A DNA stretch of 64,000 bases from Mesotoga sp. Brook.08.105.5.1 (lineage in GTDB: Bacteria > Thermotogota > Thermotogae > Petrotogales > Kosmotogaceae). Of this stretch, positions 939-9,610 are shown piece after piece. The notes beneath the pieces are model-generated. The model was not told where the DNA came from, did no database searches, and saw nothing but the letters and a program-made list of their open reading frames with translations. The position numbers were made by a program, and so were the translations under genes. The stretch lies in NCBI RefSeq assembly GCF_002752635.1, contig NZ_AYTW01000017.1:1-64000 (forward strand). The letters run 5' to 3'. How positions within the stretch are numbered: position 1 is the first letter of the stretch; every line of letters begins with the position of its first letter.

Positions 939-1728
939 GTCGACTCTACCTCCTGATACTCTGCTTCCTCCATGCTCACATCGGTGAACTCGAGAAGGGC
1001 ATCTTCGAAGCTCGGGTTCTCAATCCTTCCGAGCAACTGCTTCTTAAGCTCCAATGGTCTTCCGGAAGCTACAATTCTTCCGAGATGGATTATGGCCACA
1101 TAGTCGCAGAGCTTCTCTGCTTCGTCCATGTTGTGTGTTGTCAGAAGCATCGTCGTGTTCATAGTCTCTTTTACATCTTTTATTAGGCTCTGTACATCTC
1201 TTTTTGCTCTTGGATCGAGTTCTGTTTTTGGTTCGTCGAGCAAGAGCATTCTCGCTTCAGTCATGAGAGCTCTAACTATGGCTACCTTTTGCTGCATGCC
1301 TCTCGAAAAGTCTTCGAGAGGATCTTTCAGTCTCTTCAGATCCAGACCAAACCTCTCTGCGAGAGAGTTGATCTTCCTCAAGGCTTCTCGTTTTGGTATT
1401 CCATAAAGTCCTGCCGCGAAACAGAGGTTTTCGACAGCCGACAGTTTTCCGAAAAAACTGGCCTCGACGGATACCCTGTTTATCACTCTTTGAACCGCCG
1501 CAGAGTTATTCACTGAGTCATATCGAAAAATCGATATGCCCCCCTGTCAGGTATCAAGAGTGTGGAGGCAATCCTTATAAAGGTAGATTTTCCTGAGCCG
1601 TTTGGACCGAGAAGACCATAGATCTCTCCTTCCTTTATTCTTAAACTAACTCCTTTCAACGCTTTGACTTCCTTCTTGTTCTTCTTGAAAGTCTTTACGA
1701 TACTATTGGCAAGCAAAGCGTCTGCCAC
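935..1728 (-). pseudogene. ABC exporter ATPase, frameshift in a G run
   Basis: The gene encodes the ATP-binding subunit of a small ABC exporter. The N-terminal part has a Walker A motif GPNGSGKST. The C-terminal part has a degenerate signature (FSRGMQQK), Walker B (LLLDEP), and the switch His (LLTTHN). They lie in different frames. The break coincides with a run of six G on the coding strand (1539-1544); seven G would restore the frame ([14 protein letters not shown]). The start is GTG at 1728, seven bases after GAGGAGGTG. The D-loop region reads LDEPKTELDP where LDEPTTGLDP is usual, which is consistent with relaxed selection. A sequencing error or slippage at the G run cannot be excluded, but the partner permease is independently broken. 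Confidence 0.82.
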
Positions 1729-8446: not shown

Positions 8447-8539
8447 AACGTTTAACTCTTCGAACTGTGAACGCAGCAATCTAGACGCCGGTCTTAAAGA
8501 GAGGTATGTAATTAGCTTGTATGACAGGGGGTTTGCCAG

Positions 8540-9400
8540 ATGATTGGAGTTATTGTCGATTCAGGTTGTGATCTTCCTGAACAGATGAAAGCAAGAGATA
8601 ACGTTAGAGTTGTACCTTTGAAGATAATTCTGGATGGTAAGGAGTACAGAGACAACATCGACATATCCACACCCGATCTGCTTCACTATATGGAAGATAA
8701 GTTTCCCAAGACATCTCTTCCAAGACCGTCGGAAATCGGTGAGGCTTTTGACAGCCTTTATGAAAAGGGATTCAAGGAGATGCTTTATATTGGAATATCC
8801 AGCGGTCTGAGCGGAACGCTTGGTCAAGTGAAGACTTTTGTCAGAGACTTCTCCGAAAAGCACTCCGATGTGAAGGTCGAGGTAGTCGACTCAAAGAATA
8901 TTTCGATTGGCTCGGGGCTGCTCGCTATGAAGGGGATAGATATGATTAAGAGTGGTATTGCCTTTGAAAAGGTTGTGAGCGAAATTCACGCTTCTGTAAA
9001 GAAATCTAAGGTTTTTTTCTGCATACCTGTTCTGAAGTTTCTAAAGGCTGGAGGACGAATAGGAAAAGTTACTGCAACTATAGGTGATATTCTTGACCTG
9101 AAACCCGTAATAACCGTTGGAGAAGATGGAGTCTATCACAGTGTTTCAAAAGAGAGAGGCATGAAGAGAGCCGTCAGAGCTTCTGTGAAGAATCTCTTGA
9201 ACTTCATTGAAGGCAAGAGGCTTCTGAACATTGCCGCATATACTTCAGATAAGAGTGAAAAGACAATGGAATTCTTTCGAATGGTAATAGAAGAGATTAA
9301 GGCTGCAGGAATAGATGATGTGATAACAGGTCAAATTTCTCAGTCTCTTGTGTGTCATACAGGCCCTGGTCTCATAGGTGTTGCAGCGATTATTGAGTAG
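8540..9400 (+). CDS. DegV family fatty-acid-binding protein
   Basis: The 286-residue protein is full length for DegV/FakB, which bind a fatty acid and, in the FakAB system, present it to a kinase. The family start IGVIVDSGCDLP, the middle ISSGLSGT and the end HTGPGLIGVAA are present. The ATG lies seven bases after AGGGGG. No fakA-like kinase is next to it. It is the last gene before the minus-strand RNA at 9402-9576, whose terminator begins right after this stop codon. Confidence 0.9.
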   Translation: MIGVIVDSGCDLPEQMKARDNVRVVPLKIILDGKEYRDNIDISTPDLLHYMEDKFPKTSLPRPSEIGEAFDSLYEKGFKEMLYIGISSGLSGTLGQVKTFVRDFSEKHSDVKVEVVDSKNISIGSGLLAMKGIDMIKSGIAFEKVVSEIHASVKKSKVFFCIPVLKFLKAGGRIGKVTATIGDILDLKPVITVGEDGVYHSVSKERGMKRAVRASVKNLLNFIEGKRLLNIAAYTSDKSEKTMEFFRMVIEEIKAAGIDDVITGQISQSLVCHTGPGLIGVAAIIE

Positions 9401-9401
9401 T

Positions 9402-9576
9402 AAAAAAGAAAGCCGCCAATTGGCGGCTTAAAAGTCGGGATATTCCAGGGGGTTTCAACATGCACGTCCATTCAACAATATGGGGGGTAATGCGGACTTG
9501 CATATAACTTTTAGGTGCTTTGTCTTTTTTAATGACCGGTTGAGCTTTTGAGGTTGCAAGGGTTCTTATCTGTTTG
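9402..9576 (-). ncRNA. structured small RNA, about 175 nt, unassigned
   Basis: A consensus promoter (9582-9610) and an intrinsic terminator (AGCCGCC-AATT-GGCGGCT at 9411-9428 followed by TTCTTTTTT at 9410-9402) bound about 175 bases of minus-strand sequence without any plausible ORF. The RNA can fold: near the 5' end AUUC..CAG can pair with CUG..GAAU near the 3' end, CAAC with GUUG inside it, and a strong apical hairpin forms from GCAAGUCCGCAUU and AAUGGACGUGC. Length and this closed-stem, open-middle, apical-hairpin shape recall 6S RNA, but I did not match it to a consensus. The 3' end butts onto the degV stop codon on the other strand. Confidence 0.65.
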
Positions 9577-9581
9577 AATTA

Positions 9582-9610
9582 ATTGTACCCAAATTGATCG
9601 GGTTTGTCAA
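9582..9610 (-). promoter_or_regulatory. consensus sigma-70 promoter of the small RNA
   Basis: Minus strand: TTGACA (9610-9605), exactly 17 bases, TACAAT (9587-9582). Transcription would begin near 9575 and run toward degV. The next 390 bases upstream have no ORF in this direction. Confidence 0.85.

Follow-up and report, generated by a model that had tools for sequence, protein, structure and literature searches.

A small RNA (sRNA) gene of Mesotoga appears to be a free-standing unit whose product probably acts in trans as a C-rich regulator masking G-rich Shine-Dalgarno (SD) sequences, with Hfq as its probable helper and degV as a likely target. The gene lies within the 64,000-nucleotide stretch of Mesotoga sp. 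Brook.08.105.5.1 DNA analysed here (the window). In the mechanism that we propose from its sequence and from comparison with relatives, the promoter would drive synthesis of an RNA that folds into a stable hairpin at its centre and ends, U-rich, at the intrinsic terminator, and three C-rich stretches, one at the 5' end, one in the hairpin loop and above all one in the linker GAAACCCCCUGGAAUAUCCCGA, would serve as seeds. These would pair with the G-rich SD regions of mRNAs, block ribosome binding and so turn the target genes off; Hfq would probably assist the pairing, and candidate targets are degV (SD CAGGGGGUUU), which is likely, and the solute-binding protein genes DctP and DUF3798, which are possible. 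We regard this mode of action as probable and the list of targets as tentative.

The gene is read from right to left on the minus strand, from a start placed at about 9575 to an end at about 9402, which gives an RNA of about 174 nt (Table 1). Its promoter, TTGACA-17-TACAAT at 9610-9582, matches the consensus at 11 of 12 positions and would be a strong, housekeeping-type promoter, and its terminator consists of the stem AAGCCGCC-AATT-GGCGGCTT at 9429-9410 followed by TTTCTTTTTT. Upstream lies a divergent MFS transporter gene; downstream, degV (PF02645) is encoded on the plus strand and converges on the sRNA gene, its stop codon ending at 9400. On the degV strand (9401-9430), the hairpin is followed by TTAAAAG and not by a T-run; degV thus seems to have no terminator of its own at this place, and degV transcripts may extend into the sRNA gene in antisense.

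Table 1. Features of the sRNA gene, its predicted degV target site and its second copies (positions refer to the window unless another genome is named).
Feature	Position	Strand	Basis or remark
sRNA transcript	9402..9575	-	lies between promoter and terminator, start placed by the -10 element; kept in 10/10 Mesotoga genomes
Upstream box TTTACA-N9/10-CCGAYAA	9626..9647	-	kept in all copies, those at other loci included
-35 element TTGACA	9605..9610	-	TTGACAAA invariant across all copies
-10 element TACAAT, 17-nt spacer	9582..9587	-	TAGAAT in relatives
5' single-stranded C-rich stretch AACCCUUGCAACCUC	9550..9564	-	AACCC..AACCCC in relatives
Hairpin 5' arm AUAUGCAAGUCC	9494..9505	-	fold and alignment
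C-rich apical loop stretch ACCCCCC	9482..9488	-	alignment; entire apical part missing in the G007 paralogue L012
Hairpin 3' arm GGACGUGCAUGU	9458..9469	-	fold and alignment
3' single-stranded C-rich linker GAAACCCCCUGGAAUAUCCCGA, proposed seed	9435..9456	-	most conserved part
Intrinsic terminator, 8-bp stem then U-rich tail	9402..9429	-	conserved in alignment
degV Shine-Dalgarno region CAGGGGGUUU, predicted target site	8525..8534	+	10-nt perfect complement to the 3' linker
Second copy L012	G007, 1399-1571		
Second copy L011	G003, 1504-1709		

The element is a possession of the genus as a whole. Searches of whole genomes with blastn recovered it from all 10 Mesotoga genomes (the copy in G006 ends within the promoter, at a contig end) and from none of 51 other relatives, and full-length matches to a covariance model built from the sRNA are likewise confined to Mesotoga and absent elsewhere in the class. 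In other Thermotogota the model gives only weak matches, the best with E 1.1e-5, whose alignment rests chiefly on the widespread GCCGCC/GGCGGC terminator or on short A-rich stretches, and we do not count them as homologues; matches to the linker pattern in Prevotella, Desulfomicrobium, Bradyrhizobium and others fail the model over its length, and a search for the linker on viral contigs found none. Among the seven genomes with conserved synteny, identity is 85.6% in the RNA, as against 55.7% in the neighbouring spacer and 59.3% at third codon positions of degV, and it peaks in the 3' linker at 94.9%. An identity so far above that of spacer and third positions indicates that purifying selection acts on this non-coding gene throughout the genus. 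In the aligned copies the -35 element, the spacer, the -10 element, the upstream box, several segments of the RNA and the terminator are all conserved, which bears out the promoter and terminator described in the initial annotation and shows that they frame a real gene. Its further description of about 175 non-coding bases adjoining degV in antisense orientation also agrees with a convergent RNA of this length that holds no conserved open reading frame.

What is it that selection preserves: the gene, or its position beside degV? A cis-acting antisense partnership, in which convergent transcription or overlap of the 3' ends controls degV, would fit the arrangement in seven genomes, where the sRNA gene converges on degV and ends at its stop codon, and would gain from degV mRNA entering the sRNA gene past a hairpin that has no T-run. 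However, in G003 and G007 the sRNA gene has different neighbours, and a further copy is present elsewhere in each of the two genomes, so that what is conserved is not the position beside degV, and an overlap of ends would leave the conserved linker and promoter unexplained; we therefore hold a cis-antisense role to be improbable. These relocated and duplicated copies show instead that the conserved unit is promoter, RNA and terminator and not the neighbourhood. The upstream box belongs with this unit: it is found some 20-45 bases before the -35 element, is 87% identical as against 56% in the adjacent spacer, and is retained at the other loci despite their different neighbours. Its presence in every copy suggests a site for a dedicated regulator or an UP-like element of the sRNA promoter; as a marker of a wider regulon it yielded nothing, its other matches in the genome having the look of chance.

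Within the RNA, conservation peaks outside the paired regions. Folding of the minus strand gives the central hairpin and the terminator, with a z score of -1.56 (14 of 200 shuffles were as stable), so the predicted folding energy of the window copy on its own is only mildly unusual; in relatives two copies reach z values near -2.9 and one only -1.70. RNAalifold and the model alignment recover the same two elements, the terminator and the hairpin AUAUGC..GUCC/GGAC..GCAUGU, and 97.6% of cells are paired. The shortened G007 paralogue is the one copy that does not retain the GCAAGUCC/GGACGUGC hairpin. Of the long closing stem and strong apical hairpin that had been described from the window, only the hairpin survives comparison: the closing stem (AAAAGU/ACUUUU) occurs in the window copy and in no other. 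Compensatory changes had been proposed as a check; the conserved hairpin contains a single double change, a number equalled by 121 of 500 shuffles and not significant. Because its pairs are mostly invariant, covariation is uninformative and neither proves nor refutes the hairpin. The linker GAAACCCCCUGGAAUAUCCCGA is invariant at 23 of 25 alignment columns, the longest uninterrupted conservation in the RNA and one that falls in an unpaired region; its AACCCCC has a predicted unpaired probability of 0.80-0.98 in all 11 copies. The hairpin apex varies among copies. L012 has lost it altogether but retains the C-rich linker, and so hints by natural variation at which part matters.

These features bear directly on the suggestion, made in the initial annotation, that the RNA could be the 6S RNA of the lineage. 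In 6S RNA the 5' and 3' ends pair in a closing stem that encloses a central bubble, and the molecule binds RNA polymerase and templates pRNA synthesis; a version diverged beyond the Rfam model would mimic an open promoter and sequester the sigma70 polymerase. The Mesotoga RNA resembles 6S in its length, in having its own promoter and in its conservation across the genus, and there is no other recognisable 6S in the class. Against this, RF00013 has no match in the genome itself or in any of 103 class genomes (controls that included E. coli and B. subtilis were positive), nor does it appear in a scan of the sRNA region at permissive thresholds. Predicted pairing between the 3' region and the first 35 nt is low, about 0.07-0.17 per nt across 11 copies, so the defining closing stem is missing, in fact from every one of the 11. 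The variable apex, deletable as in L012, speaks against 6S too, as do a conservation peak that lies in a single-stranded C-rich linker and not in paired regions, and the absence of the sRNA from other Thermotogota, where a 6S would be expected to reach more broadly. The 6S assignment is therefore abandoned as very unlikely. As an observation apart from this gene, all 103 class genomes are without an Rfam-recognisable 6S; either the class has none, or its 6S has diverged beyond the reach of the model.

Other catalogued families fare no better. The Rfam comparison that had been recommended returned neither 6S nor any other family at gathering score, with zero matches at that threshold anywhere in the window, and the permissive matches are weak and lean on the terminator. 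The best of them, to the alphaproteobacterial suhB/mmgR family (RF00519), reaches 24.9 bits against a gathering score of 41 (E 0.0059 in a search of 551 bases); it spans the linker and terminator, but the alignment lacks part of the family's C-rich core and owes its score largely to the terminator, and we reject membership. Together with the conservation of the whole unit, from promoter through body to terminator, across the genus, this supports the other proposal made for the locus, a new small RNA. We also considered an mRNA for a small protein, or a decayed element that is not transcribed. Short frames do occur, and several copies have one, M(K/D)xxHVETPWNIP, that covers the linker, yet that frame has no ATG in L005, L007, L008 and L009 and no proper stop in the window copy, and the linker is invariant at would-be third positions too, unlike those of degV (59%); no conserved frame was found across the aligned copies, and the strong purifying selection excludes decay. 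Either version of this reading has, in our estimate, a very slim chance of being correct.

An SD-masking sRNA has close functional parallels. RoxS and FsrA mask SD sequences with C-rich regions, and RoxS/RsaE, FsrA and CsfG of Bacillus and Staphylococcus are stand-alone RNAs with several unpaired C-rich regions directed against G-rich SDs (PMC8216469). They combine seeds placed outside a hairpin with an intrinsic terminator, the same layout as in the Mesotoga RNA, which nevertheless belongs to a different phylum, has no detectable relationship to them by sequence or covariance model, and differs in its longer C-run and distinct conserved linker; its targets are predicted ones. At the level of sequence the Mesotoga gene shares two marks of the C-rich anti-SD class, being an independent unit with promoter and intrinsic terminator and carrying a conserved, predicted unpaired C-rich seed, and by analogy an open C-run near the U-tail of a terminator is the layout of SD-masking sRNAs. 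A looser parallel is GcvB, the transporter-regulating RNA of enterobacteria, which uses a G/U-rich seed against C/A-rich leaders. Like GcvB-type RNAs, of about 200 nt, the Mesotoga sRNA is proposed to regulate genes for solute-binding proteins, perhaps together with Hfq; its seed, by contrast, is C-rich, its proposed targets are SDs and its sequence is unrelated.

The genome encodes Hfq. A conserved single-stranded sequence beside a hairpin could also be read as a protein-binding site, the RNA acting through linker or hairpin as a sponge for an RNA-binding protein and not by pairing with mRNAs, and GGA triplets in the hairpin 3' arm and in the linker might be taken to favour this. CsrA is the classical GGA-binding target of sponge RNAs. 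As CsrA (PF02599) is absent from the genome (a T. maritima control was positive), a CsrA sponge is rejected and the protein would have to be another; the RNA also has no evident tandem repeated protein site. We consider a sponge of this kind unlikely.

To return to the masking of SDs by C-rich seeds, degV is the best-supported candidate target, and a likely one on sequence grounds. Targets were ranked over a 464-kb genome sample of 368 called starts plus DUF3798, 369 start regions in total, with target opening accounted for. With the linker as the pairing partner, the start region of degV takes rank 3 of 369, compared with 39 for the 16S anti-SD tail and 7-187 for control linkers whose flanks were shuffled around the retained CCCCC core. 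The CAGGGGGU core is kept at degV in G003 and G007, where the sRNA lies elsewhere, and is lost in G001, which has AGGAGG at this place.

Beyond degV, DctP and DUF3798 solute-binding protein genes are possible targets: AGGGGGUUU leaders recur upstream of both in many relatives. In the window's own genome DctP ranks 25 of 369, and the DUF3798 leader is AAAGGAGG, does not contain AGGGGGUUU and ranks 176 of 369, so that DUF3798 fails there as a fixed target. GGGGG occurs in about 8% of sampled leaders, and AGGGGGTTT leaders make up only about 4% of AGGGGG-ATG sites, by our estimate not far above composition. Candidates other than degV are inconsistent across species as predicted targets, and GGGGG SDs are common; C-rich RNAs in general can pair with many SDs, and conservation of SDs alone could explain conserved target sites. 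Separately, the leader AGGGGGTATTCAGATG is identical at at least five sites in the complete genome G007 (G007:C1:736131, 739482, 818833, 1235946 and 2111984), and the gene that bears it there is probably a repeated (mobile) one.

We found no description of the Mesotoga C-rich sRNA in the literature searched or in Rfam; as an RNA family it is new, and its functional kind is one already known. For the Thermotogota, a survey from 2022 gives just one sRNA (PMC9029176). The T. maritima transcriptome yielded 13 putative ncRNAs, and no secondary structure could be assigned to any of them (PMC3636130), and a K. olearia transcriptome study selected against RNAs shorter than 200 nt (PMC5674127), so that RNAs such as this one would be hidden there. 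Regulatory RNAs are thus almost uncharted in this deep-branching phylum, and the gene offers an entry point to its Hfq-dependent regulation. It also suggests that sRNAs of the C-rich, SD-masking kind may have originated in lineages other than Firmicutes and Proteobacteria. To our knowledge, Mesotoga is the only described mesophilic lineage of the Thermotogota. More speculatively, and as a tentative suggestion only, the sRNA could be a Mesotoga-specific global regulator that arose in this mesophilic lineage and controls solute and amino acid uptake by SD masking with multiple C-rich seeds; if true, it would define the first trans-acting sRNA regulon in the Thermotogota.
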